A program made the position numbers and the translations under genes. 27,757 nt of DNA from a virus. This document shows positions 1-27,757 of this stretch, in pieces. The notes beneath the pieces are model-generated. The model did not search any database, was not told the DNA's origin, and saw only the letters and a program-made list of their open reading frames with translations. Numbering within the stretch: the first letter of the stretch is position 1; every line of letters begins with the position of its first letter. Where the stretch lies: positions 1-27,757 of IMG/VR virus record IMGVR_UViG_3300008113_004969, one strand, 5' to 3'.

Positions 1-116
1 TCAGTTACTCTGAGAATTGTAAAATCTTTATCAGATCATCTTATCCAACCCCGTGTAATATATCAAATATAGAGATTGTTGGTAACTTTAGATCTCTAAA
101 TACCAGCATTGAATAA
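1..116 (+). CDS. C-terminal end of probable tail tubular protein B (gp12-like nozzle), partial
   Basis: The frame starting at base 3 is open from the left edge to a TAA at 114-116 and encodes 37 residues. The visible end reads like the last beta-strand region of T7-type tail nozzle proteins: a short I-x-I strand, an S-x-P-x-P turn (SSYPTP), then IEIVGNF and an R-S motif (FRSLN). The stop is followed directly by the GGAGAAAGC ribosome binding site of the tail-fibre gene, the same junction style used through the rest of the late region. In T7-like phages this protein forms the distal tail nozzle to which fibres attach, so lying just before the fibre gene fits. The other two forward frames stop at 11-13 and at 70-72. 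The family call rests on 37 residues and on context, so it is moderate. Confidence 0.5.
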   Translation, partial: SYSENCKIFIRSSYPTPCNISNIEIVGNFRSLNTSIE

Positions 117-125
117 GGAGAAAGC

Positions 126-2354
126 ATGCCTTGTTATGATTATTTAACTACGAATTCTTCGTTATTTACAAATACAGAAGTAACTTTGCCTGTTAGTGGC
201 ACTACTTATTCCTATAATTCTTTATATTGGATTTGTAATTATTCAGTTTCAACTCAGTTAAAAGTATTTAAGAAGAACTCTACAACAAGTAATACTGTTC
301 AGTTGATTTTAAATACAGACTTTACTATTAATGAAACTAATGCGACTATTAATATTACAGCATCTTTAGTTAATTTTGATCAAATTGTACTACAAAGATC
401 TACTCTTAGTGATCGCATGATTACTAATTTTTCAGAAGGCGCTAAGCTTACTGCTAAAGATCTTAATGATTGTTTCTATCAGTTATTATTTGTAACCCAG
501 GAAAAAGACTTTACTAACTCAACTGTTAATGTTAATTATTCTTTAGCAACCGCAGTTAGTGCGTGGCTAAATGGAACCTCATATACAATTGGTAGTATTG
601 TCTCATATAACAATAAAATTTATAAATGTATCCAAGCCACCAGTAGCATTGATCCAACTAATGCTGCATACTGGACAATGATCAACCCAACTCTTAATGG
701 GTTTTACATTACTGGTACAAACTCTAGTTTAGAGTTTGACTTTAGTAATTTACAAGCTGGGCATGCTATTGTTTGGAATGGTACTAAATTTGTTAGCAAT
801 CCTTTTATTGGGTCTATTTCAGATTTATCTGATGTTGATACAACTCCAGTAGCTAATAAAGATATCTTAGTATATGATACTTCTAATCCTAATGGTAATA
901 AATGGACTGCAAAAAGTCCAACAGTTGATATTACCCAAGCACAACTTCTTTTTGCAGATAGAACATTCTATCCTCCAACAAACCTTTCATGGTACAACGG
1001 AACTGGACTTAATGTTTCTTCAGTAACACAACTTGGTGGATTTAAAAATAACTCTAATCAATGGGTAGTTACAGATCCTCCTACAGTTTATCATATTATT
1101 AAGAAAATTCTACCAGCCGAAGAAGATCCAGTTACTTATTTTACTAATGTAACCAATAGTCTTGAAGATGTTTCAGATCGTTTGTCAAATCCAGTTAAGA
1201 TTAAATTAGAATGGAATTTAAATCAAGGTAGAATTAATACAGCAAAATCAGATGGTACTGATAATCTTGGCAATTATAAATCAATGTATTGGAATAAACC
1301 CAATGAATTATACAGTGCATCTGGTTATAATTTAACAGGTCCTTTGCCACTTGTATTTCATGGAGTACAATCTGTAGATTCTCCAGTTACTAAAGTATAT
1401 ACAAGTCCTTATTTCAATAGAACAACTGTCTCAGCAAGTGAAACATCCTATACATCAAAACTATATGGTTATGGTATTGCAGCTTTTTATCTTAGTGTAC
1501 CAGAGTGTCATACAACAACACTTAAGATGCCTATATTTAGTTTAACAGCTGGACAAGAACCACTATTTTATTTACCAGTAGCAGCTGGATCAAATTTAGA
1601 TATAGATGGTATTAAAAATGCATTTAATTCAATTTCAGCTGAAGGTGGTACATTTAATAATGGTAATGTAAATTTTAAAGATTTTTATCTTTTACATCTC
1701 CGTGATATGTGTTTTGCTGGAGTAAGACAACCAAATAACTATAGTGTAAGCGCTAGTCCACAACAACGAGATAAAATTGCTCGATTAATGAAAAATTACT
1801 TTATAGCTGCGGATTACGATTTTAGTTATATTGGAAATTCTTCAACTAGTACTATAAATTATAAACGACTTGAAACAGCAGAATCAGCTATTGGTTGTAT
1901 GTGGAAAATTCCTGCTACAATTATTTACTATAATAAACAATCTTTAGCAATGGCATCAACAGCTGAAGGTTCAATTAATACAAGTAATAGTTTTACCAAT
2001 GAAAAACCAACTGTAAGATTTCAGGGTTGGAATCGTTTACAAAAAACAGAAAATTTAGATAGTACAACTAGTAATAGATGGGAAGGTGTTTATGCCAAAG
2101 CAGATAAACTATGGACTGCTTGGCAACAACGATGGCTTACAGAAAATACTAATACCTATGATTATCGTTTTAATGAAGCAGATATTGATTGGTTCACCAG
2201 TAATGTTGGAGTCGTAGACACAAGTACATTAAATCCACATTTAGATTTGTACAGACAAAGTTATGATTATCCTAGTTATACAGGTAATACTTATATTAAT
2301 GGTTACAACTGGTGTTTACCAAAGTTTTGTAGATCAGAATGCTATATTTTCTAA
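126..2354 (+). CDS. Tail fibre protein, T7 gp17-type N-terminal domain (5' part of a split gene)
   Basis: 742 residues with an ATG behind AAGGAG. Residues 1-130 match the T7 tail-fibre N-terminal (tail-attachment) domain: an early beta strand, NTDFT, an IVLQR-S-T-x-S-D-R stretch, F-S-E-G-x-x-L-T-A-K-D-L-N at ~102-114 and a closing Q-E-K-D. This part docks the fibre on the adaptor/nozzle. Residues ~146-184 look like a small CBM5/12-type carbohydrate-binding module (W-x-x-G-x-x-Y-x-x-G-x-x-V-x-Y, Y-K-C, then P-x-x-x-x-x-W). The remainder is beta-rich and rich in N, T and S, as expected of a receptor-binding shaft, and I do not recognise its fold. The last ten or so residues before the stop look unnatural (cysteine-rich), while the +1 frame continues as plausible protein. 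The real fibre is therefore probably ~990 residues and includes the next entry. Confidence 0.85.
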   Translation: MPCYDYLTTNSSLFTNTEVTLPVSGTTYSYNSLYWICNYSVSTQLKVFKKNSTTSNTVQLILNTDFTINETNATINITASLVNFDQIVLQRSTLSDRMITNFSEGAKLTAKDLNDCFYQLLFVTQEKDFTNSTVNVNYSLATAVSAWLNGTSYTIGSIVSYNNKIYKCIQATSSIDPTNAAYWTMINPTLNGFYITGTNSSLEFDFSNLQAGHAIVWNGTKFVSNPFIGSISDLSDVDTTPVANKDILVYDTSNPNGNKWTAKSPTVDITQAQLLFADRTFYPPTNLSWYNGTGLNVSSVTQLGGFKNNSNQWVVTDPPTVYHIIKKILPAEEDPVTYFTNVTNSLEDVSDRLSNPVKIKLEWNLNQGRINTAKSDGTDNLGNYKSMYWNKPNELYSASGYNLTGPLPLVFHGVQSVDSPVTKVYTSPYFNRTTVSASETSYTSKLYGYGIAAFYLSVPECHTTTLKMPIFSLTAGQEPLFYLPVAAGSNLDIDGIKNAFNSISAEGGTFNNGNVNFKDFYLLHLRDMCFAGVRQPNNYSVSASPQQRDKIARLMKNYFIAADYDFSYIGNSSTSTINYKRLETAESAIGCMWKIPATIIYYNKQSLAMASTAEGSINTSNSFTNEKPTVRFQGWNRLQKTENLDSTTSNRWEGVYAKADKLWTAWQQRWLTENTNTYDYRFNEADIDWFTSNVGVVDTSTLNPHLDLYRQSYDYPSYTGNTYINGYNWCLPKFCRSECYIF

Positions 2355-3102
2355 TGCTCATAACTTTGTTCCTAATCCCGAAGATGAATATGTTTTTAGA
2401 GTTGTGGCTAAGAAAGGTGTCATTAGTAATTATTTTATTGATGCACTTAGAGATAAACTTAAGTCATCAATTATCCTAGAATATGGTTTAACCGACAATG
2501 CAAATTATCAATCTAGAGCTTTAGTATCGTCAGTTACAGATATCTATAAAACTCAATACAGTCAATTAGAAGCATCTAGTGCCAGAGTCTGGTCTAAAAC
2601 AGATTTATCAAAACTAAAAGTATACATTAAAAATGAATCAGTTGAAATTTATGATGGTAATACTCGTTATGTAATTACCTTAGCAATTCGTGTTCCACGT
2701 TTAAAATCTTTAGGATATTCTAAAGTTTATAGAAAGTTTTCTGATACAGATGCAGGACATCCACAAAGAGACAGTAATGCTGATGATACCGAAATTGACT
2801 CAGGCCCTTGGGGTTTTACATTAGGTCCTATTACTGGAGCTGCAACTCCAGTGTTATTCGGTACAGTAGCAAATAATAAAAATATTTATACTTATGATGC
2901 AATGGGAATTTTTACTATGTATGGTGAAGCTGGTATTGGTTCTAGAGCTTATGGTATTGCAAATCGTGTCGAATGTGCTGTAAAGTTTACAAACCTAGGT
3001 ATTCCTAGTAATCTTTGGATTCGTTTATCTGTTTTAAATACAGATGGAACTTTAGCTTTAATTAATAGTGGTGGATTTAATTCTTTAGCAACTCAAGAAT
3101 AA
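2263..3102 (+). CDS. C-terminal part of the tail fibre, in the +1 frame
   Basis: This open frame runs to a TAA at 3100-3102. Its only upstream ATG (2263) lies inside the fibre gene, has no ribosome binding site, and gives a hydrophobic first ~20 residues that look like out-of-frame translation. The next in-frame ATG is near 2900. Sensible protein begins near 2323 (SFVDQNAIFSNAHNF) and joins smoothly to the fibre frame if one base is skipped in the CCAAAG at 2319-2324. I read it as the distal ~259 residues of the fibre, which usually hold the receptor-contacting tip. The segment ends with a compact beta-rich stretch (NLWIRLSVLNTDGTLALINSGG). Whether the join is made by programmed +1 frameshifting, or the break is a sequencing error or mutation, cannot be told from one sequence. 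A truly separate gene is less likely. Confidence 0.6.
   Translation: MIILVIQVILILMVTTGVYQSFVDQNAIFSNAHNFVPNPEDEYVFRVVAKKGVISNYFIDALRDKLKSSIILEYGLTDNANYQSRALVSSVTDIYKTQYSQLEASSARVWSKTDLSKLKVYIKNESVEIYDGNTRYVITLAIRVPRLKSLGYSKVYRKFSDTDAGHPQRDSNADDTEIDSGPWGFTLGPITGAATPVLFGTVANNKNIYTYDAMGIFTMYGEAGIGSRAYGIANRVECAVKFTNLGIPSNLWIRLSVLNTDGTLALINSGGFNSLATQE
2319..2327 (+). other. Apparent +1 frame break in the tail-fibre gene
   Basis: In the fibre frame the codons are CCA AAG TTT, running to a stop at 2352-2354. Skipping one A gives CCA AGT TTT GTA GAT, which reads L-P-S-F-V-D and opens the 259-codon downstream frame. No ribosome binding site or usable start serves the downstream frame. The run is only three A's, so homopolymer miscounting is possible but not the obvious explanation. 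A proline codon followed by A-A is a conceivable +1 slip site, but it is not a canonical one. Confidence 0.5.
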
Positions 3103-3112
3103 GGAGAAACTA

Positions 3113-3355
3113 ATGGAGGAAAAGAATCGTAATAGTCCAACAGTTGTACTTCAATGGTTTCAACTTATTGTATTAGCTATTGGTGTTGGTGGATTTTTTA
3201 TTGATATTGGAAAAAGAAGTCAATTAATTGATAAGACTGATAAAGATTTAGCTGAGTTAAAGATTATTGTTCAAGATTTGGTTAAAGCCCAGATTCAAGT
3301 TTCATCTAATGATGCTCGTCACGGTGCAATGTTAGATGATTTAAAACAAAACTAA
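3113..3355 (+). CDS. Small single-span membrane protein, probable lysis protein (holin-like)
   Basis: 80 residues with an ATG behind TAAGGAGAAACTA. Layout: a short charged N-terminus (MEEKNRN), one hydrophobic span at ~12-33 (VVLQWFQLIVLAIGVGGFF), then a charged helical tail (KTDKDLAELKIIVQDLVKAQIQ) that could form a coiled coil. In T7 the gene directly after the fibre gene is the holin (17.5), a small single-span protein, so position and topology suggest a holin or a membrane partner of the lysis system. No sequence signature confirms this. The frame ends just before the next small membrane gene, and the spacing implies co-translation. Confidence 0.55.
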   Translation: MEEKNRNSPTVVLQWFQLIVLAIGVGGFFIDIGKRSQLIDKTDKDLAELKIIVQDLVKAQIQVSSNDARHGAMLDDLKQN

Positions 3356-3807: not shown

Positions 3808-4025
3808 AAGAAAAGTTAAATCAATTACAAGATCTTCTTTTAGATTGTTTGGTTAATGATCTACAAGATCCAGATCGACGTACACCAGGTTTATATACCG
3901 TTATTAGAGGCATCCTCAGTGATCACAAGGATCAAGTAAACAAGATCCCAAGTGAGTCTATTGAAGCCGTAGAGCAAGCTATTAAAGATGCTGCTCCATT
4001 TAAGATTAAGAAAGCAGCTTATTAA
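3804..4025 (+). CDS. Small terminase subunit (T7 gp18-like, DNA maturase A)
   Basis: 73 residues, starting at the ATG that overlaps the previous stop (ATGA). The segment D-L-x-D-P-D-R-R-T-P-x-L-Y-x-x-I followed by L-x-D-H-K (residues ~19-43) closely parallels the T7 gp18 stretch as I recall it (DL-x-D-x-x-R-R-x-P-Q-LY-x-x-I ... L-D-R-H-K). The small terminase recognises concatemeric phage DNA and delivers it to the large subunit (4693-6360) at the portal. In T7 gp18 likewise sits a short distance before gp19. The protein is shorter than T7 gp18 (89 aa), mainly at the C-terminus. The next gene starts one base after the stop, implying coupled translation. Confidence 0.75.
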   Translation: MKEKLNQLQDLLLDCLVNDLQDPDRRTPGLYTVIRGILSDHKDQVNKIPSESIEAVEQAIKDAAPFKIKKAAY

Positions 4026-4026
4026 T

Positions 4027-4683
4027 ATGAAGATGGCTATTGCTAGTGTATTGTTTATTTCATCAGCCGCATGTGCTGAAGTTATTGTTGCTAATAATCC
4101 AGTTGTAGATACAGTTGGATTTTACTCAGATGCTTTTGATTCCAAGGGATCATATACTTATGCTCAAAGTGGAGCACAGGGTTTTGATCTTGAAGAAGCA
4201 TATTCAACTTCATCTATTCGTTGGTGGGGTTCCATGAATGGTTTTAATGATCAAGGTTTAACTAATATTGATTGCTTCCAAATCATTGTGTGGAATACAG
4301 ACTTTGAAACTCAAGTAACAAACCAAAAGATTGATCTTTCAGGTATTACTGTTACTGCAACTGGTGATTATAATTTCTTTGGTCAACCAGTCTATGAGTT
4401 TTACGTTCCGTTTACATTCCAAGTTGCAGCAGGGAGTTACTTTATGAATATCGGTGCTCAACTTAATGATGCTATGGGTGATCAGTTTGTTTGGTCGCAA
4501 GGCCAAAATGTAAATCAGTTTTGGTTTACAGACGAAAATGCACAAAACAAGTGGGGTGATTGGCGCCCACTTCCTATCTTCATCATCAATACCGCTGGTG
4601 GTGCATTTCAATTGAATGCTCCAACCCCAGGAGCTATTGCTTTGGTTGGTATGGCTGGTTTAATTAGTCGTCGTAGACGATAA
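4027..4683 (+). CDS. Secreted protein with PEP-CTERM-type sorting tail
   Basis: 218 residues from the ATG at 4027, one base after the small terminase stop. An upstream in-frame ATG at 3988 lies inside that gene and would bury the signal peptide. The N-terminus is a signal peptide (MKMAIASVLFISSAACA, probable cleavage before EVIV). Residues ~18-195 are beta-rich and aromatic with many G, N and D, like a jelly-roll or adhesin-type ectodomain. The last 20 residues are P-T-P-G, a small hydrophobic stretch (AIALVGMAGLI) and RRRR, the tripartite form of PEP-CTERM signals as seen in planctomycetes. Such tails are processed by host exosortase enzymes, so the product is presumably routed to the host envelope or surface. 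No exosortase is in the window. In T7 this slot between the terminase genes holds the spanins (18.5/18.7), so a lysis or envelope role is possible. Function unknown; the signal architecture is clear. Confidence 0.8.
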   Translation: MKMAIASVLFISSAACAEVIVANNPVVDTVGFYSDAFDSKGSYTYAQSGAQGFDLEEAYSTSSIRWWGSMNGFNDQGLTNIDCFQIIVWNTDFETQVTNQKIDLSGITVTATGDYNFFGQPVYEFYVPFTFQVAAGSYFMNIGAQLNDAMGDQFVWSQGQNVNQFWFTDENAQNKWGDWRPLPIFIINTAGGAFQLNAPTPGAIALVGMAGLISRRRR

Positions 4684-14209: not shown

Positions 14210-17200
14210 ATGTTATGCGACATTCCAAATATTACTAAAGAATTTGAAAGACTAATTTCTAAAGGTGTTCCTGTTGATACAGCTGAAATAATTATTAGAG
14301 GAAAACTCCGAGCAGCATCTAATCCAGTTTCAGAAAAAGTATTAAATGAACTTTTTCCAAAGCCAATAGCCCAGGAATTAACCGAAGATGAAAAGAATGA
14401 ATTAGCAGATATTTGGGATACAATTGCTACTAGATTCTCCACACCAAGTAGAGATTTTTATGTTGAGTTTTTAGATAGTATTGGTAAAGCAGATTTACGA
14501 GAAACCTTTGGATTAATTGTTGGAGATAAACAACAAAGGTTATTTGAACTTGTTAAAAAGAGTGGATTAGATATTGAAAATTACCAAGTAGTTCAATATC
14601 AACATATTAATCGAATTAATGAACTTATTACTGCACATCAAAAACTTGGAAACGAAGAATTTGTAAAAGATCTTCAAGATGTTCTATTAAAAGAACAAAC
14701 CAAACTTGAAAAACGAAAAGAAAACGCTAATAATCTCGGAGAAAAAATTAAAGAACGTGAGATTAAAGCCGCTGTAATTAAAAGTCTTTTAGCAATAGCA
14801 GAAAAAATTGATATTTCTATTATAACCGAAACTGAAAAAGTTTTTAAAGCAGACCTAGAAGATCTATTATCTAAGATTGAAAAATACGTTGAAACAGCTA
14901 AAAACCTAAGAGCTAAGTTAGATAGAGCATATACAGCATGGAAAGCTGCTGATCCAACTAGACGATCAAAATTACGAGAAACTTACTATAAGTTAAAGAA
15001 AGAACTAACACCAAAAATCAAAGAAGCAACTAAAGAAGGCGCTAAGTTAGTTCGAGAATCAGACAAGAAACGACTTGAGTTTATCTCAAAAACTTATAAA
15101 GATCGTTTAGGTAAAAGTCTAGGAGCAAGGGATAAAACCTTTAGTGAAGTTATCTTTAGATTAGAACAAGAATTGAATAAAATACAAGGTGAAATGGTTA
15201 ACCTTAGTCTTAGAGCCGTAGCTCAAGATACAACTAATCTTACTAGATCAACAAGTGAAATTATTACCCATCAAACTCGTATGCGTACAGTTGCTGAAGC
15301 TGGTGCTAAGATGCGTGTTGATAATTTTATTGCTAGACTTGATACTGAAAATACACCCACCTTACAGGAACTTACTGAAACTTTTGGTGAACCCGCGTAC
15401 AATATGATTGTGAATCAACGCGATCCTATTAAACTTGCGGATGGAAGCGAAACTAAAGACTTAACCAATCCAAATAAAAAAGAAATTATTGCAGCTGGAC
15501 GTCTTTGGAAAAACTTAATGATGCAAACAGCAACTGCTGGGTTCTATTCAGAAGATCCTGCTGATATTACAGAAGAAGCAATAAACCTTATTGAAACTAT
15601 TGCAATGGGTCGTACTATAGTGGATTCATCCTCTCCTGAAGCCATTGATCCTTCCTTTGCTCCAGCTAATACTGCTGAAGATCGTCTAGCAATGGCAACC
15701 CCAGGTGTTATTCCAGATCATAATAGATTTAAAACTGAAGATGAAGCAGTACGAGCACTTGAAGGAACAATCCGTCGTTTATACAGTGTATTTGGATTTA
15801 AACACTTTAATGGTATAATTCCAGAAAAACTTATCAGACAGGTATTAGATCCTAAGTTAATGGACATCAATCCCAAAGCTTGGCAAAGTGCTCAAATTTC
15901 CTATCTTAAGTCTAAACCTTTTAACGATATTCAAACACAAGATCAAATCAATTTACGTCGGGGTATGATCCTTAGTCACGGTGGAAACCCTGATATCATG
16001 CCTGAGTTTAATGACCCTTTGTGGTTTGGCGATAATTCAAAATTAATTTCTTTTGATATTGAAACTTTTGGTAATATCTACCATCCAACTGATAAAGTAG
16101 ATGGTGTTTACTCTATTCAAATTAAAATGAAAGATGGTATTCATCCACCTCAAACAAAGATTTTAGTAAACAGTGGTGGTGTCTTAGTAGATGCAAAGTC
16201 TGTTATTACACCTGATAGAGATCCTATTACCAAGGATCAACTAACTAAGTTTCTGGGAGATTTAGAAAACTTCCAGAATGAGGGCTTTAAAGTTATTACT
16301 CATAATGGTAATAATTTTGATTTTCCTCAACTAAAGAAACATGTTAATGATGTTGATTTACTAGCAAGAGTTGCTATTCGAAGTATTGACTTATTAGCAA
16401 ATATTACATCAGCTGTTCCTGGTAGAACATGGCATCAAAAACAAAAGACTAAGGGTAAAAAACTTAAAGAACTGGCTAAAGCAAATTTGCCAGAATCTAC
16501 TCCTCGTACAGCTTATGATGGAAGAGTTCAATTTACAAGCGGCTATCCTATTGATTTAACTACAGGAACTGAAATTAAACTTAGTTCTGATGGTATTAAA
16601 CCACTATGGGATGAGGCTAAGGCTTCTGGAGAATGGTATCGTTTTGATGCTTATTCTGAAAATGACGCTGACATTACGATTGATTTGTTTGAACACATGT
16701 TTAATTCAAAAACAAGCGAATTAAAACTAATCAGTGAAGGATCAGTCTCACCATCTATAGTTTCAGTTGGAAAACCACTAAGTAATTTATTTTTAAATAA
16801 TGATACAACCCATATTTCTGGTGATTCTTTAGAAAATTCATTAGGTGATCTTAAAAACATTACACCACAGATGACTGATCAAATCGAATCAGCGTTATAT
16901 ACCGAAGCTGGAGGATACGATGCTCATAAAGTATTGGATATTTTTACTGGCTGGTGGTTAAAAGCACTAATGGGTAATGAGATTAAATATGGAAGAAAAC
17001 TAGAACAAATTAAGCAAGCTCTTGCAACCAAAGCAGAAAAAGAAGTTTTGTTTGATACTATTCTTGTAAATATTGCTAGTGAAAATCTTGGAGCAATTCA
17101 ACCACTACTTAGAGAAAAGTTTAATAAATATGGTTTTGTTTTAACTTTAAATTATAAGACTGATGGTGTTACTGATGGTTTAGTAGAAATTAATGATGAA

Positions 17201-20200
17201 TCAGATCCAACAACTGGTAATTTTAAAATAGAAGGTACTTTTAATGAGTCTGTTTTATATTCGCAACGAGTATCTAGCCCAGAGCGATACGAAAATGCAG
17301 TACTTAAGTCCTTCCTTGAAACAATTAATAATCCCAAAATTAAACATCGTTTTAGAAAAGCATTGGAAACTAGAGTTAAACCAAGAAAACGCCTTGACGA
17401 TGAAACCGATGCTGAGTATTGGAACTCAGTTATTAAAGATTACTTAAGACCATTAATTCGAGGTTTCTTTACTTTAGCTGATTTTGGTAATAGTAATATA
17501 GACTGGAAACCAGCAGATGAAGTTGGAATTGCTATTGCTCAGGTTATGATGGATCAAAAACCAGGAATGACTGTTTCTGATGTTTTAATCCATAATGGCC
17601 ACAGTATTGAAGAAATATTCCAAATTGACGAGCAAGCACAGTTTAAAGCTCAAGGATCTCTTGGAAGACGAAAAGAATTAGCAGTTTTAGATCCTCTTGA
17701 TGTTCATATGGCACAGCCACATGCTTTATCAAAAGAAGAAGCAGCATATGATGGATTTAGATTAATTCGACGTGTAAACCATTTGTTAGATATGGAGATT
17801 GATTTCACAAGAGAATTAAAGATCGAAGAATGGTTAAGAAAACCAATTAAACAAGAAAAAAGCGATGCTATTGCTTCAATCGTTAATGAACAAATTCTAA
17901 GTCTTCAACCAGATCTTGCAGCTCGTGGAGTCTTTACTAGTATACCTTCTTTAACTAGAAAAAAACAAATAGCACAAGAACATTTATACAACATTCCAAG
18001 ACTACTAATGTCCATTAATCACGATTGTTTTTATATTGGTATTGGACAGCCACAAAGATTCTTAAATGAAGATCTTCCTGTATTCTTCTTTAATGATGCT
18101 ATTAACCCAGGTGGACCAACTGGAGCTGCTTTAATGGGTGGCGCTATGGATCAACTTGCATGGATGATTAACTTTGGTATGGTTACAGACCAAGAGTTTA
18201 ATACTATTCTTGGTTCTGTCGAACGGGGTATTGAACTACTTCGTCGTGAGGGTCCTAACGCAATTGCTATTGGAAATAAAACCGATTATGCATTCCAAGG
18301 TAAACACAATATCCTAGCAATGATGTTAGCTATGCAAGATGGAAATCTAAATCTTGTAAATGACATCTTAGCTAAATTCGGTGCGACTGATGGTATGGGT
18401 AATGTTGCAACTCTAGAATCAGAAAAAATTATTGTTAATAAAAAAGATCTTGGAGATCCTAGATTTAAAGTTTATGATTTACTATTTGGATACAAAGAAA
18501 GACAAGCTGATGGTACTGAAAAAACTATTGATGGTATTTTCCCAGACATGTTAGATAATCCAGATAAATATAAACTTACAGTAGAAGAACATAATTTACT
18601 TAAGTCAATTGGCCCTAAGCTTAATAATATTGCAACGGATAGAACAAAACTTAAAGAGTTCTTTAAAGGTGCAATTACTCCTAGAATGTATCAAGCAGGC
18701 TTACCTGGTATTATGAAGGGTTTGTCTGATAAGAATGCAGCAAATGATTTAGGATTTACCGAAGAAGAAATTGAATATTTAGCTTCTGTTTTATTGCGAT
18801 CAAATATGATTCAAAGCATGTCTATTGTTGATGCAGCTTTGGGATTTTCATCAACAGATATTAAAGAATTAAAAGCACTTTTATTAAAATACAGACAAAG
18901 AGCAAATCGAGATAATCTTAGAGCTTATGTTGGACCCAGTGCAGCAAAAGCTGCTGCAAATAAGGAAGCAAGATTAAAATCATTAAAAGAATGGTATAGT
19001 AAGTCTTTAGATGAAGTTTCAAAGAGTCTTGGTAGATTTAAGGGTATTTCTGACATAGATGTAAGAAGACAACCCCAAATAATAGCCGAAAAAGAAAAGA
19101 TTAAAAAAGATTGGGAAACTCGTTTAACAGAAGCTTCTGAAATCTGGAATACCCGTGCAGTTGAAGATATGTCTACAGATGAATACCATACTCTTATGTA
19201 TGATTTAAATGTTGTTCTTGCTGGAGGTAAAGAAGCATTAGAAAACCAACTAATGTTATATGCTTTAAGACGTAGGGCAGCAACCCCATATGTAATTGAA
19301 GAAGATGCGATTGATTTACAACAATTAGTATCTACGGCTCATATTGATAAAGAAGATTATCAACGATGGTTAAATAAAGAAATATTCTTTAGATATGGCG
19401 TAGAAGCTGCTAGCGGACGTAATCACATGGTTGGATGGTATGGTATTGGACCAGAAGGTTCAAAGTATGCTCAACCAAGAGTTGTGGCTCCTAAAGATTC
19501 AACCGATGTTGAAAGAGATCTCTTTAAAAAAGAAATGGGAAGTGATTATAATCCATTTGGTTTATGGGATATTAAAGAAATTAAACCCAAAACTACTAGG
19601 GATATAGATATTTTATTTTTACGTTCAGTTATGATTGATTTAGCAAGATTCTATAAACCACCAGTTTTTACTGGCTATCCAATGATGGCAGAATCTAGAC
19701 AAAGTTACTTTAGAGCAGTTGAAAAAAGATCTGCTCGGGAAATTGAAGCCCAAGAAAAAGCTCAATATCTTGATTCATTTGCAGATGAACATGAGTTTAC
19801 TATTAATGGAGAAACAATTACCAATAAAGAACGTAAAGTTCGTAATCGTAAATTGTCGGGAACTGTAGGTCAAAGAGTTCGTATGCGTACTAAGTTAAGT
19901 GGAACAGGAAAAGAATCTCTTGTTCTTGACGCTAAGATTGATGGTATTGGTGCATTACGACCAAACTATGCAGATATTGACTTTACACAACGTGGTATTT
20001 ATGCATTAGCAATGGCTCAGCATAGAGCTAGAATTAGAAACAATGAATCACTTACTTTAGCTAAAACCTTAGATAAGCCAGATACTTTTGGCCCTAATGA
20101 CTTTGTTGATAAATCTTTACGAGGATTCGTAAGTCCATGGGATAAAGACACAATGCCCTATATTCCTCAGTCAAGTGAGGATATCGGAGCTCTTGTTGTT

Positions 20201-23200
20201 TTGGGTTCTAAAAATGCTATTGAAGTAAAGGCTGTTCAGTTACAAAATACACTAGAGGCTTTTGCTAAAGAAAACAATTTAGAAGATCTAGTTGCTAGGG
20301 GAGATTGGACACGCTTATTTGTTATTAAACGAATTAAAGAAAAGGCTTTGTATCCTACTTTATCAACACTTAGAAAGATTCAAAAACCATCACCAACTAG
20401 TACATCCTTAGATAGAATGCTTCCAATTAAAGAAGCTCGGGTTAAGTTCCATGATGGTTTAATTAAAGTAGCTGGAATTAATAGCATTGCTCTTAGCGGA
20501 AACCATAAATTCTCGGTAACTGATCTGATGGCTTCTTTAGATGAAAGAGCTTTATCAATAGAGGACATAAACGAAATTAATTCATTATACGGAGAAGAGC
20601 CTGGTTGGATTCAAGTATTGACATGGTTAGCAACTAAAGGCAAAGTAAGTCGTTTAATGCCTTTGAAGTTTGGTTTAACTATTGATGCTGGTGTTATTGC
20701 TAGAGGCAAAGAAGGACGCCAAGGAATTCGTGGTACTTCACTTATTCCTATTACGTCCTTTGGCTTTGAGATTATGCAAGTCTACCATTTTATCCAAAGT
20801 ACTGAGATAGCTAGAAAAATAGCAACACGATTAGTTCCTGGTTCTGCTTTGGATACTCCTGCGGTTAAGAAAGATTCAAATGGATTTATTATCCTTGAAA
20901 GTCTTAATCCATTATTAGATACCAAACTGTATAATCAAATCCTTCAAGAAACAATGCAAAATAAAACTGAGTTGACAAAACAACTCATGACTACTTTTAC
21001 TTTTGTATTAGATCGCAGTCAAACTTTACGCATAATGACTAACGCTGATCAAGTGTATAGAGAAGATGAAACAGAAGAATCTTTAACTAGACAGGGTATT
21101 ACTGATGCAAATGTATTTACTCAAACTTTAGTAGATAATCCTGGTACTCTGTGGTTATTTACTCCAGATATGGTTACACAAATGTTAAATCAGATCGGTA
21201 ATAATAAATTCTTTTCTGAATTTACATTGGGATATCAAACTAAAAAAGAATTATATCAGATTAAATCAGATGCTGATATCCTAGCACAAGAAGAACAAGC
21301 TCAGATGTTTGAAAAAATGCGTGAAGATGAAGAAGATATGAACGATGCTCTTCTCATGTTGCATAAACTTAATCCAGGTAAAGCTAAACCAATCATTATA
21401 TCTGATTACCGTAAAACAGATCTAAACGGAAATCCTCGTTTAGTTATTGACTTCGGTGCTTACATGGTTAATGAAGCATATTACCGTGGAAGTCAAGCAA
21501 AAGAAGCTGCCGAAGGTTCTTCTAATAATGTTAAAGTAAATTTATTAGTATCTAGGGATGGAACTACAGAGCTTAAAAAAACTTCAGTAACTATTCCAAC
21601 TGCTGATATGCCATATGTTTCTACGTTAATAAATGTCATTAACAAAGCAAGAGCTTCGGGATTCCATGAACAAGCTGATAAGATTTCTGATTTTGTTGAA
21701 AAATATGGTAGAATTGAAAAAGAAACTGATCCTAAAGAACTAACAGTTAAAAAGAAATTCAAAGGTGTAAGAACTAGTACTGTAGTTCTAAAACTTGCTG
21801 CAATGTCTTTTGAGTTGGCTGGTAATACTGAAGCACAGGAAGCGTTATTTACTTACTTTGGTTTTAGTAGTCCTGAAGAAGTAAAGACTCTTAAGACAAA
21901 ACTAGCCCCCGTTCTTGATGCTATGTTATACACTACCTCAGTTGAACGACATGAAGTAGATTCTGCTTACTATATTACAAAGGCAAAACTTGAACGTCAA
22001 GACTTTGTTGATAAGAATCTTTCTAGAGATTCTGTATTTGTTTCTGAAATTAGTCGCCTTACAAACAAACCAGATTCTAGAGAACTACGAATTAGTATTA
22101 TGAAAGCAACTGATGAGGTAATTCAACCAATGGTTGAACCTGAAATTGCTTCTGATTTATTTAAAATTACAGCAAGCCCAGCGGTCTTTGCTGATCCAGA
22201 TAGCTTTATGGATTCCTTTGCAGATCCTGGGGATAGAGCCATTGCTGAAAAGATTGTTGCTAATCTAGATCAACTAGTTGCAGATGGTATTATTTCAGCT
22301 CGTGTTCGTGATATGAAACTAATGTTAATTGGAAAACTCAGTCAAAATAATATGGAGTTTATCCGTAACTTAGGATTTGAAGCTTATAGTTCCGACTCTG
22401 AACCGCTTATGTCAGCAAGTAAACGAAATGGTAAATATATTCTTGGATTGAATATTAAACTTGCCGAACTAACAAATGAAACCGAAATGGTCTTTAGATT
22501 TGCTGAAGAATTATTACACATTGCTCGCGTTAAGTTTGTCAGTCAAAACTCCCAAGAATGGAACAATGTTGTTGGTTTGTTTAGTGCAAATAGATCTAGG
22601 GGTATGGTTCGTGAGATGTTAGTTGCAATGAGTGGTAAAATGCCAACAGAAGAATTAGAGTCAAAGGTAAGCTATGCAATGTCTAATCCTGATGAATTCT
22701 TTGCTCACGTTGGAGCATTTGTATTACTAAAAGATTTATTTGGCAACAGTGAAACTTTAAACACCTTAGCCGCTAGATTCCAAGGTATTGCAGCAGCAAC
22801 CTCACTTTGGAAACGAGCTTTCTTTATGATTAAGGGAATGGCTAAGAATATCTTAACTACATTTGCTAAACTTACTAATGATCCTAATTATTCAGATCTT
22901 TACCAAGAAGCTGAAAAAGCAGTAATGGGTGTTATTGAGAATGGATTTGTAGCTAGAGGAGATGTTGGAAATCCAGATGCAGTTTATAATACATATAAAA
23001 ATTCTGCAACTACTTTAAATAATAAGGTTATATCTCCTGTAGAGCAATCACAAATTACAATTCTTACTTCAGAAATACAAGCCTTAGAAACACTAAGAAA
23101 CGCTGAAGTAGCCAAAGATGTAACCACTAGAGATGAAGTGCTTATCAATAAACTAAATAACGATATTGAAACAAAAACAAAAGATCGTAGAGCACTAGAT

Positions 23201-23959
23201 GCAATTACATTTATGGGCATCAGTCGTACTGAAGTTTCTGAAAAAATGCAAGATCTAACTGCATGGCAAGCAAAAAGTAAACGACGTATTACCGAAAGTG
23301 AGATGTTAAGACAAGGAAACAGAAGAGCTTTTATTTCTCACTTTGTCACTAAGGGTATAGAAAGACGTGGTAATAGAGTTGATACGCCATTTACATTAGC
23401 TGGAATCTTTAGAAACTCTTGGCTTTCTGGTCCACTAGGTGAAAAGATTATCTCAGGAGTTATTCAAAATGGTGCATTAAATGCATTAACAGCAACTGAA
23501 CTTACATGGAATTCTCCATTTGCACCCATGGTTGTAATTGCTGATCTTCTAGATCATACTGCGGCAACAACCTCAGGTAGTTTTAAATCAAATGTAGGTG
23601 GCATTGCTAATCAAAAGCATCAAATAGATGTGTATGCCCATAACGTTTTAAGAACATGGGGTGAAATTTCCTCAGAATATACAAAGCCTGAAAAGCAATT
23701 ACAAATTGTAACCAGTGTTATTGAAGCACTTACCCTTAAGAAAACTCCAACGACAACTGATAAAAAGGAATATGAATATATTCTAAAACTATCTGAAGCT
23801 ATTAAACTTATGCGAGATCGTATGGTTGAATTGATGAATGAAAATCAATTGTTAGAACCAGGAGAAGATTTAAAGGTAGACGAGTTTCCAATCAAACTAA
23901 GAAACTTTTCATTGCTTTCTGAAGAACAACGAGAAGTTGGTTATACATTGAGATTGTAA
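14210..23959 (+). CDS. Giant virion polyprotein: DEDDy exonuclease plus RNA polymerase-like motifs (5' part)
   Basis: 3249 residues, ATG behind TAAGGAGAATTTAAAAT, last of the ejection-gene run. Residues ~130-330 are charged coiled coil. A DEDDy 3'-5' exonuclease follows: Exo I D616-I-E618 (SFDIETFG), Exo II HNGNNFD (Asp704), Exo III Y815-S-E-N-D819. Residues ~1270-1500 resemble single-subunit RNA polymerases: QPQR with Arg1283 then INPGGP (the DxxGR/NPQG loop of T7), T-D1359-x-x-x-Q-G-K-H with A-M further on (motif A), and K1486-x7-Y1494-x-x-G (motif B; T7 has K631-x7-Y639-G). Motif C is not clear; an H-D at 2081-2082 is far away. EELLH (2766-2770) with NPDEFFAH (2826-2833) resembles a degenerate zinc peptidase. 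By position it should be packaged and ejected with the DNA. The exonuclease call is firm, the polymerase call is tentative, and the rest is unassigned. The frame ends in an apparent break with the next entry. Confidence 0.7.
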   Translation: MLCDIPNITKEFERLISKGVPVDTAEIIIRGKLRAASNPVSEKVLNELFPKPIAQELTEDEKNELADIWDTIATRFSTPSRDFYVEFLDSIGKADLRETFGLIVGDKQQRLFELVKKSGLDIENYQVVQYQHINRINELITAHQKLGNEEFVKDLQDVLLKEQTKLEKRKENANNLGEKIKEREIKAAVIKSLLAIAEKIDISIITETEKVFKADLEDLLSKIEKYVETAKNLRAKLDRAYTAWKAADPTRRSKLRETYYKLKKELTPKIKEATKEGAKLVRESDKKRLEFISKTYKDRLGKSLGARDKTFSEVIFRLEQELNKIQGEMVNLSLRAVAQDTTNLTRSTSEIITHQTRMRTVAEAGAKMRVDNFIARLDTENTPTLQELTETFGEPAYNMIVNQRDPIKLADGSETKDLTNPNKKEIIAAGRLWKNLMMQTATAGFYSEDPADITEEAINLIETIAMGRTIVDSSSPEAIDPSFAPANTAEDRLAMATPGVIPDHNRFKTEDEAVRALEGTIRRLYSVFGFKHFNGIIPEKLIRQVLDPKLMDINPKAWQSAQISYLKSKPFNDIQTQDQINLRRGMILSHGGNPDIMPEFNDPLWFGDNSKLISFDIETFGNIYHPTDKVDGVYSIQIKMKDGIHPPQTKILVNSGGVLVDAKSVITPDRDPITKDQLTKFLGDLENFQNEGFKVITHNGNNFDFPQLKKHVNDVDLLARVAIRSIDLLANITSAVPGRTWHQKQKTKGKKLKELAKANLPESTPRTAYDGRVQFTSGYPIDLTTGTEIKLSSDGIKPLWDEAKASGEWYRFDAYSENDADITIDLFEHMFNSKTSELKLISEGSVSPSIVSVGKPLSNLFLNNDTTHISGDSLENSLGDLKNITPQMTDQIESALYTEAGGYDAHKVLDIFTGWWLKALMGNEIKYGRKLEQIKQALATKAEKEVLFDTILVNIASENLGAIQPLLREKFNKYGFVLTLNYKTDGVTDGLVEINDESDPTTGNFKIEGTFNESVLYSQRVSSPERYENAVLKSFLETINNPKIKHRFRKALETRVKPRKRLDDETDAEYWNSVIKDYLRPLIRGFFTLADFGNSNIDWKPADEVGIAIAQVMMDQKPGMTVSDVLIHNGHSIEEIFQIDEQAQFKAQGSLGRRKELAVLDPLDVHMAQPHALSKEEAAYDGFRLIRRVNHLLDMEIDFTRELKIEEWLRKPIKQEKSDAIASIVNEQILSLQPDLAARGVFTSIPSLTRKKQIAQEHLYNIPRLLMSINHDCFYIGIGQPQRFLNEDLPVFFFNDAINPGGPTGAALMGGAMDQLAWMINFGMVTDQEFNTILGSVERGIELLRREGPNAIAIGNKTDYAFQGKHNILAMMLAMQDGNLNLVNDILAKFGATDGMGNVATLESEKIIVNKKDLGDPRFKVYDLLFGYKERQADGTEKTIDGIFPDMLDNPDKYKLTVEEHNLLKSIGPKLNNIATDRTKLKEFFKGAITPRMYQAGLPGIMKGLSDKNAANDLGFTEEEIEYLASVLLRSNMIQSMSIVDAALGFSSTDIKELKALLLKYRQRANRDNLRAYVGPSAAKAAANKEARLKSLKEWYSKSLDEVSKSLGRFKGISDIDVRRQPQIIAEKEKIKKDWETRLTEASEIWNTRAVEDMSTDEYHTLMYDLNVVLAGGKEALENQLMLYALRRRAATPYVIEEDAIDLQQLVSTAHIDKEDYQRWLNKEIFFRYGVEAASGRNHMVGWYGIGPEGSKYAQPRVVAPKDSTDVERDLFKKEMGSDYNPFGLWDIKEIKPKTTRDIDILFLRSVMIDLARFYKPPVFTGYPMMAESRQSYFRAVEKRSAREIEAQEKAQYLDSFADEHEFTINGETITNKERKVRNRKLSGTVGQRVRMRTKLSGTGKESLVLDAKIDGIGALRPNYADIDFTQRGIYALAMAQHRARIRNNESLTLAKTLDKPDTFGPNDFVDKSLRGFVSPWDKDTMPYIPQSSEDIGALVVLGSKNAIEVKAVQLQNTLEAFAKENNLEDLVARGDWTRLFVIKRIKEKALYPTLSTLRKIQKPSPTSTSLDRMLPIKEARVKFHDGLIKVAGINSIALSGNHKFSVTDLMASLDERALSIEDINEINSLYGEEPGWIQVLTWLATKGKVSRLMPLKFGLTIDAGVIARGKEGRQGIRGTSLIPITSFGFEIMQVYHFIQSTEIARKIATRLVPGSALDTPAVKKDSNGFIILESLNPLLDTKLYNQILQETMQNKTELTKQLMTTFTFVLDRSQTLRIMTNADQVYREDETEESLTRQGITDANVFTQTLVDNPGTLWLFTPDMVTQMLNQIGNNKFFSEFTLGYQTKKELYQIKSDADILAQEEQAQMFEKMREDEEDMNDALLMLHKLNPGKAKPIIISDYRKTDLNGNPRLVIDFGAYMVNEAYYRGSQAKEAAEGSSNNVKVNLLVSRDGTTELKKTSVTIPTADMPYVSTLINVINKARASGFHEQADKISDFVEKYGRIEKETDPKELTVKKKFKGVRTSTVVLKLAAMSFELAGNTEAQEALFTYFGFSSPEEVKTLKTKLAPVLDAMLYTTSVERHEVDSAYYITKAKLERQDFVDKNLSRDSVFVSEISRLTNKPDSRELRISIMKATDEVIQPMVEPEIASDLFKITASPAVFADPDSFMDSFADPGDRAIAEKIVANLDQLVADGIISARVRDMKLMLIGKLSQNNMEFIRNLGFEAYSSDSEPLMSASKRNGKYILGLNIKLAELTNETEMVFRFAEELLHIARVKFVSQNSQEWNNVVGLFSANRSRGMVREMLVAMSGKMPTEELESKVSYAMSNPDEFFAHVGAFVLLKDLFGNSETLNTLAARFQGIAAATSLWKRAFFMIKGMAKNILTTFAKLTNDPNYSDLYQEAEKAVMGVIENGFVARGDVGNPDAVYNTYKNSATTLNNKVISPVEQSQITILTSEIQALETLRNAEVAKDVTTRDEVLINKLNNDIETKTKDRRALDAITFMGISRTEVSEKMQDLTAWQAKSKRRITESEMLRQGNRRAFISHFVTKGIERRGNRVDTPFTLAGIFRNSWLSGPLGEKIISGVIQNGALNALTATELTWNSPFAPMVVIADLLDHTAATTSGSFKSNVGGIANQKHQIDVYAHNVLRTWGEISSEYTKPEKQLQIVTSVIEALTLKKTPTTTDKKEYEYILKLSEAIKLMRDRMVELMNENQLLEPGEDLKVDEFPIKLRNFSLLSEEQREVGYTLRL
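16025..16720 (+). other. DEDDy 3'-5' exonuclease domain inside the giant protein
   Basis: Corresponds to residues ~606-837. Exo I D-I-E-T-F-G, Exo II N-x-x-x-F-D within THNGNNFDFPQL, and Exo III Y-x-x-x-D within YSENDADITIDLFEHM appear in the right order with plausible spacing (88 and 115 residues). This is the layout of proofreading exonucleases of family A/B DNA polymerases. All four acidic metal ligands and the tyrosine are present, so activity is expected. No family A DNA polymerase palm (D-Y-S-Q-I-E, H-D-E) follows it. Confidence 0.8.
23923..23959 (+). other. Apparent frame break between the two parts of the giant gene
   Basis: The 3249-codon frame stops at TAA 23957-23959, whereas the frame one base back is open from 23923 onward and continues for ~880 codons. 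The upstream frame reads ...EEQREVGYTLRL-stop; the other frame reads ...YIEIVKNDIKSGTATVV. The change needed is -1 (or +2) within 37 nt. I see no classical X-XXY-YYZ slippery heptamer there. No start codon with a ribosome binding site serves the downstream frame. Confidence 0.55.
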
Positions 23960-24024
23960 AGAATGATATCAAGAGTGGAACAGCTACAGTAGTTACTTCA
24001 GGTCGTCAAGCTTTAATAAATCAC

Positions 24025-26607
24025 TTGATTAGAAAGATTGCAGACAAAGGAGTTAAAACTGGAACATATTCAAAGATAAGTGTATATGCTGATAACTCCT
24101 CTGAAGCTATTATGAATGACATTCAAGATGAACTTTATTCTGTATGTTACATGACTAGAGAAGGTAACGTAACTATGAATAAAGCATTTGCTGGAATGAC
24201 TACTCAGAATATGGAAGTATTGTTAAAAGATTACACAGATGCTATTGAACATAAAACAGTAGATTCTAAGACTAAAGAAAAATTTGATTCAATTAAATCA
24301 AACGAACAAGCAATGTCTTTGTTTAATATCCCAACCCAAGCTATTGGTATCTTACCACAAGCATTTGATACAATGGGATCTAATGATGTCTTGGCTATTG
24401 AATTCTTAAGTAAAGTTGGGGTTTCTTCTCACTTGTTTAGAAAAGATGCGTTCCACTTAAATGCAGAAGATGTATTTGTAAATGGCTCAGTTGAACTTAA
24501 GCAACTATTTGATTGGCATATTGATTCAGCTTTCAAGTCTTTAGCACGGGGTACAGGATATGACCTTGTTGAAAGAATCTTGTTACAAGAACTTTCAGGT
24601 ATTCCTGGAGCTTACTTTAACATTGCTCAGCTACTTAATATGCTAGAAGCTGAAACAAACTCTACTGGTGTAGAAGCTGCTAATTTCCATTTATTAGATG
24701 CATCAGGCACTCCAATTGATAATACACGAAGTAAAGTTCTTATGCAACATGCTATTGAAAGAGCAAGATTGGCTCATAAAGAAATTCGTGGTACTTTAAC
24801 TAATGATGATTTAGACTTAGGTAGTACAATGAGCAAAGTTAATTCCGCAGCAAAACAATTAGTTGCATTTAGATATGGTGTTAATATTAACTTTGCAACA
24901 GCTTTAGTTGAAGCACCTAACGGAGTTTTAGCTGCTATGTCTAGCGGAGATAATATAATCAATTCTCTACTTAATATTATTGCATTTGGTGGAGTTGCTG
25001 TTGAACAATATCTAAGAGGTTTTGGTTGGAATCTATATGATAAATTACCACAAAAAGCAGATGGTGGTCCTATGTGGTCATTTAAAAAAGGTATTCTTGC
25101 TGGATACAAATTCTCACCACTAAGAGAACGAAAACTCAATGAACTAGCAGCAAGTGCTTTATGGACTACAGAAGAAGCCTTGTCACCTATGTTACCTCAA
25201 AACCTTAACCACTCGGATGCCACCAGTGACTTGGTTGAAAAACTTGGATGGTGGGAACGATCTCTATTAAGACGTAGTAGATCAAACTCTAATGTTATGC
25301 GTTCAGTTAGAATTGCGGCTGGAGCTGTGGCTAATCGTAATATTGTTAAACTTGTACGCAATGGTAAATTACAAAAGTTTAGAGATGAGTATATTAAATC
25401 AAAACCCACAACCGTTGCTGGTATTATTGCAGTAGCAGATTCCGTAAAAGTCAGTATTGATCAAGAAGTACTAATCAGTATTGTTAGATCTGGTTTACTA
25501 GAGAAGAATGTCCTAGAGGCAATTCAAACTGTATATCAAAACTATGGAACATACCGAGGTACTGTTCTAGATCAATCAATGTCTGCTTTAGAAACTGATC
25601 TACACTTTGGTAGATCACCTATTAGAGTTAATAAACTAGGGGCTAGAGAAAGTGAAATAGCAATTAAACAAGCAAGAATGGCTATGGCTAGATTCATGGA
25701 TCTAGACATAAGTCGTACAATGGTTACAAGAAAACCAATGGATGCTCCAGTATCTAATGATTTTGCTAGAAACTTGTTGACATTCTATAAATCCTACCCA
25801 GCACTCTGGGTATCACAACAGTTACTAAGGAGAGGTAGTGTTGCAAGCCCATGGAAACTTGCAATCCATATCTTCTTGACTGGTTTATTAGATTTGATTT
25901 ATAATATTGTTTTAGGTTTAGCAAGAGGTTCATTAAGTTATAAAGATGTCTTGGAACAGTTAGAAGATCCAAGTTCAACTAAAACTTCTGACTTAGTACG
26001 ATATGTACTCAGACATCCCGTGTTTACAAACAATCCAGTAGGTCTTGCTGCCAACAGTACACTACAGGCAGCTACTGGTAGGGGTTCTGCGGCCATTAGT
26101 GCTGTAACTGAAGGTGCTTTACAAACTCAAGTTAAAGACCTTGGTAAACTTGGGGCTGCTTTACTTGGTAATGAAGCTAGAGATCAATCGACTTCGGCAT
26201 TACTATATAAAGCATTAGGTCCATTGTTACCAGAAGAATTATACTCTATTCCAGTTCGTCTTATGGCTATGCAAGCATATGGTGATGCAACCCCCTATTC
26301 TAGCCCAGGAACAAAAAACTCTACAGTTGGTAGAGTTATGCAAATGCAAGATAATTATTATAATGGAGATGCAGCTGCTGTCTTTAGAGCTTTGATTCCT
26401 AGGTATGAAGAAACAATGCAAAAACGATCTGTTTATGATCGGGTTAAAACTAATGCTAATCAATTACAACAATTACATCAAAAACCAAACATCCAGGTAC
26501 CAACTCAAGTTCCAACACCAGTTACAACAACACCACCAGTACCAACCCAAACTAGAGTTCCAACTCTAGTTGAACAAGCTACCCAACCTATTAAAGCTCC
26601 GATGTAA
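24025..26607 (+). CDS. C-terminal part of the giant virion protein (gp16-like helical tail)
   Basis: 860 residues if started at a TTG at 24025, but the frame is open from 23923. The first ATG is near 24112, and neither start has a ribosome binding site, although nearly all neighbouring genes have AAGGAG. I read it as the continuation of the giant protein, giving ~4,130 residues in total. The sequence is mostly helical. A hydrophobic segment at ~607-640 (WKLAIHIFLTGLLDLIYNIVLGLA) could insert in a membrane, as gp16-type ejection proteins do, and other small-residue stretches occur at ~320-335 and ~690-720. The last ~45 residues are a P/T/Q/V-rich tail (VPTQVPTPV, PPVPTQTRVPT) suited to a flexible anchor. 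The stop at 26605-26607 is also where base composition changes sharply. No enzymatic motif recognised. Confidence 0.6.
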   Translation: MIRKIADKGVKTGTYSKISVYADNSSEAIMNDIQDELYSVCYMTREGNVTMNKAFAGMTTQNMEVLLKDYTDAIEHKTVDSKTKEKFDSIKSNEQAMSLFNIPTQAIGILPQAFDTMGSNDVLAIEFLSKVGVSSHLFRKDAFHLNAEDVFVNGSVELKQLFDWHIDSAFKSLARGTGYDLVERILLQELSGIPGAYFNIAQLLNMLEAETNSTGVEAANFHLLDASGTPIDNTRSKVLMQHAIERARLAHKEIRGTLTNDDLDLGSTMSKVNSAAKQLVAFRYGVNINFATALVEAPNGVLAAMSSGDNIINSLLNIIAFGGVAVEQYLRGFGWNLYDKLPQKADGGPMWSFKKGILAGYKFSPLRERKLNELAASALWTTEEALSPMLPQNLNHSDATSDLVEKLGWWERSLLRRSRSNSNVMRSVRIAAGAVANRNIVKLVRNGKLQKFRDEYIKSKPTTVAGIIAVADSVKVSIDQEVLISIVRSGLLEKNVLEAIQTVYQNYGTYRGTVLDQSMSALETDLHFGRSPIRVNKLGARESEIAIKQARMAMARFMDLDISRTMVTRKPMDAPVSNDFARNLLTFYKSYPALWVSQQLLRRGSVASPWKLAIHIFLTGLLDLIYNIVLGLARGSLSYKDVLEQLEDPSSTKTSDLVRYVLRHPVFTNNPVGLAANSTLQAATGRGSAAISAVTEGALQTQVKDLGKLGAALLGNEARDQSTSALLYKALGPLLPEELYSIPVRLMAMQAYGDATPYSSPGTKNSTVGRVMQMQDNYYNGDAAAVFRALIPRYEETMQKRSVYDRVKTNANQLQQLHQKPNIQVPTQVPTPVTTTPPVPTQTRVPTLVEQATQPIKAPM

Positions 26608-27451: not shown

Positions 27452-27501
27452 CCGCGCATCTTTCACGCGGAACTGTACACTACCAACAGATCAAATGGTA
27501 G
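27452..27501 (+). promoter_or_regulatory. Two short hairpins in the leader of the last gene
   Basis: CCGCG (27452-27456) pairs with CGCGG (27466-27470), and CTACCA (27480-27485) pairs with TGGTAG (27496-27501). The second hairpin ends about 12 nt before the AGGAGA ribosome binding site of the gene at 27525. This could influence translation or RNA stability. Stems of 5-6 bp are weak evidence on their own. Confidence 0.25.
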
Positions 27502-27524
27502 GAACGTCAAAGACAGGAGAAGTT

Positions 27525-27757
27525 ATGAAACTTCACTACTTTGCTAAGGGTGAGATCAATCTTCACGATCTGATTCAGGTCGTGATGCCAGCCCACATTG
27601 CGGCTGGTGGCGATCCCACGGACTTTAGTCCAGTGGGACGAATTCTCGGACAGCTCGTTTCGACGGGCTGCTACTCCATGATTCCTATTCCCTATCGACA
27701 GGGAAACAAGGAATATGTTGGCTGGCAATTGCGTCGTGCCCCAGGCACGACAATTGA
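27525..27757 (+). CDS. Unrecognised protein, N-terminal 77 residues, runs off the window
   Basis: ATG at 27525 behind AGGAGAAGTT; the frame stays open to the right edge. The visible part begins MKLHYFAKGEINLHDLIQVV, continues with GGDPTDFSPVGRILGQLVSTGCYSM and ends with EYVGWQLRRAPGTTI. It is soluble, with no signal peptide or membrane span and no motif I recognise. It shares the ~50% G+C composition of the two preceding genes. The open frame with a good ribosome binding site supports a real gene. Function cannot be stated. Confidence 0.6.
   Translation, partial: MKLHYFAKGEINLHDLIQVVMPAHIAAGGDPTDFSPVGRILGQLVSTGCYSMIPIPYRQGNKEYVGWQLRRAPGTTI

Follow-up and report, generated by a model that had tools for sequence, protein, structure and literature searches.

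A probable rearranged T7-superfamily RNA polymerase module in a giant, probable virion protein of uncultured T7-like phages

The virion RNA polymerase (vRNAP, gp50) of phage N4 has the canonical motif order of the single-subunit RNA polymerases (ssRNAPs), and the RNA polymerase of crAss-like phages is of the double-psi-barrel type, unrelated to T7-type palms. The N4 vRNAP carries a zincin domain (PMC5512222) and forms part of the DNA ejectosome (PMC12633501). Permuted palms, in which motif C comes before motif A, are described for the RNA-dependent RNA polymerases (RdRPs) of Permutotetraviridae and Birnaviridae (PMC4666646). In the open-access literature, with few subscription papers and bioRxiv preprints covered, such permutation was found in RNA-virus RdRPs only and in no T7-like RNA polymerase (RNAP) or family-A polymerase. 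The giant gene described here encodes what we consider, with a probability of about two in three, to be an internal virion (ejection) protein in which a central stretch of ~650 residues (about 1230-1850) would constitute a DNA-dependent ssRNAP of the T7/N4 superfamily, with its motifs in the order C-A-B-thumb/DxxGR.

The window, which is the whole 27,757-base virus record IMGVR_UViG_3300008113_004969, has close relatives among IMG/VR contigs. Its late cassette is T7-like and comprises the tail fibre, the small and large terminase, a 261-aa protein and proteins of 1,346 and 996 aa, followed by the giant gene. This position behind the terminase and internal-protein genes fits an internal virion protein, as the original prediction had proposed, and the large terminase subunit (TerL), portal and T7-type RNAP of the giant-bearing phages are those of T7-like phages. 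The same prediction had described one open reading frame (ORF) of ~4,100 residues, which is not present in the window. The gene is divided there into a first part (14210-23959, plus strand), with 3,249 aa in frame that provide the residue numbering used throughout (1-3249), and a second part in a different frame (24025-26607, plus strand), with 860 aa from its first start codon. At positions 23946/23947, 151 nt are absent in comparison with two ~95% identical records and the frame is shifted. One of these two records, L002, is complete over the gene and encodes the giant as a single ORF of 4,182 aa. A programmed frameshift at 23.95 kb is ruled out, since the relatives have the 151 extra nucleotides and one frame. 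A similar gap is found in the tail-fibre gene at window position 2307/2308, where 89 nt of the relative G002 are absent and a 1,019-aa ORF is divided into 742 and 279 aa. The two gaps together suggest assembly errors in the record more than biology. Elsewhere in the window, a 231-aa protein (3988-4683) ends in a C-terminal PTPGAIALVGMAGLISRRRR resembling a PEP-CTERM-type sorting tail, a possible hint to the host; the sole NCBIfam result for the protein was a MYXO-CTERM match below threshold (E 0.43).

By a scan for the terminase, 68 loci were assigned to the same phage group; their records, together with alignment-based scans, provided the giant homologues. Their identity to the window protein ranges from 97% to about 14-16%. 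Wherever a contig contains the entire giant, the gene is one uninterrupted frame of 3,999-4,715 aa, and the giant of L147 has at least 5,211 aa. Because the frames are intact in the relatives, the giant protein is real and conserved. No isolate-phage relatives of the polymerase region (tested clades) were obtained by tblastn against 50,697 isolate-phage records, one pattern scan of GTDB genomes gave no relatives of the giant, and PDB sequence searches gave no match. No Pfam RNAP family, PF00940 included, matched any of 21 members or 11 full-length giants.

The polymerase motifs were examined in an alignment of 21 giant homologues covering window residues 905-2100. Among its 1,196 columns, 12 are invariant, namely G1093, D1098, R1188, P1263, D1272, G1301, D1359, G1364, D1416, K1486, Y1494 and G1497. 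Motif A (residues 1357-1370; 18278-18319, plus strand) contains D1359 and, at the steric-gate position, G1364, both in 21/21 sequences, as well as H1366 in 20/21. It is followed by a DxY element (residues 1412-1422; 18443-18475, plus strand), whose D1416 (21/21) is aligned by hhalign to the Asp of T7 'QDIYGIVA', and by the motif B helix (residues 1482-1497; 18653-18700, plus strand), in which K1486, Y1494 and G1497 occur in all 21 sequences and residue 1482 is Lys or Arg in each of them. In the hhalign register, D1359 corresponds to T7 D537, G1364 to G542 (T7 motif A 'DGSCSGIQH'), residue 1482 to R627, K1486 to K631 and Y1494 to Y639. The predicted T7/N4-type motifs A and B are thus supported, in exact register with T7, and motifs A and B were also located in the N4 vRNAP sequence. 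The original prediction named D1359, K1486 and Y1494, which are indeed found at these residues, and took their loss in homologues as the observation that would speak against it; none of the three varies among the 21 proteins, whose identities go down to 14-16%, a conservation that, judged from the alignment, exceeds chance.

The third acidic residue of the palm, which the prediction had asked for as motif C, appears to be D1272, located upstream of motif A. The corresponding C module (residues 1250-1295; 17957-18094, plus strand) includes H1271-D1272 at 18020-18025, 87 residues before motif A and in hhalign register with T7 806-818. D1272 is present in 21/21 sequences, and residue 1271 is His in 19/21 and Gln in two distant giants. 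The variants read 'VVHDSFF', 'FVHDSI' and 'FIHDSQ', in the context hhxhHD[SCA]. Downstream of motif B, the N module (residues 1681-1788; 19250-19573, plus strand) is assigned as the segment equivalent to T7 AINIAQNTAWKIN and the DxxGR loop, with R1737 (19418-19420) conserved in 20/20 sequences. R1283, formerly proposed as the DxxGR arginine, is Arg in only 11/21 homologues and was discarded. Upstream of all these motifs, a 'DFGNGxxDWxPA' element (G1093, D1098) and R1188 (nt 17486-17773) are invariant in 21/21 giants, and no T7 RNAP counterpart was assigned to them.

Profile alignments were used for the assignment of modules. An alignment of T7-like RNAPs, taken both from these phages and from isolates, was divided into module N (T7 300-500), module P (501-700) and module C (770-883), and each module was compared by hhalign with residues 1150-1850 of the giants; other giant parts and reversed and column-shuffled blocks provided 27 controls. 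The hhalign scores against the control maxima were 51.7 against 20.0 for N, 28.4 against 21.0 for P and 22.5 against 17.1 for C, a comparison that serves as a guide and not as a formal probability, the controls coming partly from the same giant proteins. The best hits fall on the catalytic register, with N at 1681-1788 (T7 315-460), P at motif B or at A and B together, and C at H1271-D1272. In the N-module alignment, T7 AINIAQNTAWKIN stands opposite 'ALNxxxxTPxxL' and 'DWRGR' opposite 'ASGR'. Considered by itself, the C match covers few columns (10-17, P about 0.02) and is of modest significance; this assignment is better supported by the invariance of D1272 across the family.

As aligned, the module order of the giant is C-A-B-N (C-P-N), compared with N-A-B-C (N-P-C) in T7, and it is not a simple circular permutation. 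Since motif C is placed upstream of A and the NTxWxIN/DxxGR segment downstream of B, the giant is not a strict member of the canonical T7 family. Of the T7-like order proposed originally, the succession of A and B holds, whereas the DxxGR/thumb segment (R1737) lies downstream and motif C upstream, so that the arrangement is rearranged and not co-linear. The shortness of the local C match leaves some room for a T7-superfamily RNAP of the order A-B-C-N, in which the true motif C would be degenerate or located elsewhere, H1271-D1272 would have another role and N would remain downstream. This reading gains from the global mode of hhalign, where the template order P-C-N scored best, with 43.4 versus 34 for P-N and 35.5 for N-P-C. 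However, T7 D812 stands opposite a gap in that very alignment, residues 1340-1850 alone gave no hit with the C module (hhalign P 0.44), leaving none after motif B, and D1272 is invariant in 21/21 sequences, in an hhxhHD[SCA] context. We consider this reading, which amounts to a simple circular permutation, unlikely.

The giant also contains a DEDDy (DnaQ-like) exonuclease domain at residues about 605-830 (16022-16699, plus strand). The predicted motifs D616/E618, D704 and Y815/D819 are found at these residues, and the domain is backed by Pfam RNase_H_2 (5e-5), PHROG 403 (0.0055) and an hhalign match with the exonuclease of T7 gp5 (P 1.5e-4). The exonuclease motifs are lost in the distant giants L137, L138 and L146-L148, which retain the polymerase motifs. 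The exonuclease of the original prediction is real, but it is optional in the family and no constant partner of the polymerase motifs. In L147, an insert at residues 3476-3676 has a RecB-like look (GELD...DVKTK) and matches the 'RNA-polymerase subunit' giants of crAss-like phages (29% identity, E 6e-10), which indicates that different giants bear different nuclease-like domains.

An upstream DEDDy exonuclease related to that of T7 gp5 reproduces the domain order of family-A DNA polymerases, and motif B is common to both families. A virion-carried, family-A-like DNA polymerase, joined to its exonuclease and filling in or repairing the entering DNA, could be envisaged on these grounds. The steric-gate position, however, is Gly in 21/21 sequences, as in T7 RNAP, and not the Glu of family-A DNA polymerases. 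The N module corresponds to a T7 RNAP element, and a family-A DNA polymerase profile, for which most sequences came from the same phages, gave no match to the polymerase region. Moreover, members of the family can do without the exonuclease, and the giant-bearing phages encode a separate family-A DNA polymerase. A DNA polymerase thus seems very improbable. An RNA polymerase is favoured over it because of the Gly at the steric gate, the T7-RNAP nature of the N module and the absence of a match with the family-A profile.

These phages also encode two other ssRNAPs. A canonical T7-type RNAP of ~811 aa was found in 13 of the 21 giant-bearing records, the other records being mostly fragments. A divergent second ssRNAP gene of 600-700 aa, canonical in its motif order, follows a short distance downstream of the giant, and in six relatives its product reaches PF00940. 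The window encodes the first 87 aa of this gene (27495-27757, plus strand), which is cut by the window end, and the full gene in a relative encodes 638 aa (L008:6620-8533). With three ssRNAP-type genes in one phage, the giant region could be a polymerase-derived domain that is inactive and serves the ejection protein structurally or in DNA binding. Consistent with such a role, the palm lacks a confident model. Two AlphaFold2 models had mean pLDDT of 65 and 59, mostly < 50 in the C/A region, and no palm is visible in either of these low-confidence models. A PDB fold search with the first of them gave nothing usable, nor did Foldseek against viral models with the same low-confidence model, where the top hit was an uncharacterised uncultured-virus protein (E 0.018). 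The module order of the giant is also not known from any ssRNAP. Against inactivity, the residues that stay invariant at 14-20% identity are the catalytic ones (both Asp, Lys, Tyr, Arg and the steric-gate Gly), which is unexpected for a purely structural role. An inactive domain is thus judged quite improbable, and the polymerase reading is retained.

Towards the C-terminus, a SprT-like zincin motif region is located at residues 2755-2800 (22472-22609, plus strand), with E2767 and H2770; this clade has lost the first of the two HExxH histidines. The SprT-like zincin is matched by Pfam in 4/11 giants, and HExxH or a remnant of it occurs in all giants reaching that far. The giants contain 0-6 cysteines each, whereas the other two RNAPs have 9 apiece and the N4 vRNAP has 0.

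Hairpins were noticed at several sites in the relatives. A cluster is situated upstream of early genes (L005:1862-1950; L192:2850-2980; L196:3240-3330) and may represent hairpin promoters or a control site of another kind. The hairpin ACCCTAG-TATATAG-CTAGGGT is conserved in G002, G001 and G011 and partly in G043, and ACCTAAG-ATA-CTTAGGT, with a 7-bp stem and a 3-nt loop, in G002, G001 and G011. Another hairpin, with GACTCACTATAGG, which is identical to the core of the T7 promoter, occurs at L005:13564-13582, immediately before a pair of tRNA genes, and was the sole such site found. No T7 promoter was detected within 3 mismatches in the first 20 kb of a relative, and repeated promoter-like motifs in intergenic DNA were absent or barely above shuffles.

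From these features we infer a mechanism involving palm folding, RNA synthesis, packaging, early timing and roles for the exonuclease and the zincin. The giant protein would be housed in the phage head and ejected together with the DNA. The rearranged palm would join D1359 of motif A and D1272 of motif C, and two metal ions would be held there. The motif B helix (K1486, Y1494) and R1737 may handle the incoming rNTP and the template, with G1364 replacing the steric-gate Glu of DNA polymerases. The giant could thereby transcribe the first genes on the incoming DNA at a time when the T7-type RNAP of the phage is not yet made, the optional exonuclease might trim or process the entering DNA, and the zincin might process or release the polyprotein. 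The wider picture, of a rearranged T7-superfamily RNAP (C-A-B-N) carried in the virion by an ejection protein of 4,000-5,200 aa with interchangeable nuclease domains, in phages encoding two further ssRNAPs, is on balance the probable one. The original interpretation is upheld in its T7/N4-type motifs A and B and in the late-cassette position, but not in T7 co-linearity or R1283.

A protein unrecognised by Pfam, PHROGs and isolate-phage records hereby gains a testable function. If the module is active, it would show that the most-used laboratory RNA polymerase has a fold in which modules can be rearranged, would add a second lineage of giant virion RNAPs outside Schitoviridae, and would suggest three-polymerase transcription programmes in a widespread group of uncultured phages.

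Among known systems, the giant likely works like the N4 vRNAP of Schitoviridae. Both are giant single chains encoded among virion genes, with a mid-chain polymerase module, a zincin towards the C-terminus and no or very few cysteines. The giants differ from the N4 enzyme in the order C-A-B-N, in the exonuclease added in some of them, and in belonging to phages with a T7-like TerL, portal and T7-type RNAP. With T7 RNAP and the T7-like ssRNAPs (PF00940), they appear to share motif A (D....G), the DxY element, motif B ([KR]xxxKx7Y), an HD motif C, a DxxGR-type Arg and the 'NTxWxIN' segment, whereas their module order is reversed, the thumb is largely shortened and no Pfam hit is obtained. The permuted RdRPs of Permutotetraviridae and Birnaviridae are comparable in having motif C before motif A in the palm, but they are RNA-dependent enzymes of RNA viruses, and no sequence relation to them is claimed. 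The giants also resemble polyvalent ejected proteins with interchangeable enzymes, since the polyvalent phage giants, including the RNAP-subunit giants of crAss-like phages, likewise combine several enzymes, nuclease and zincin domains among them, in one giant chain.
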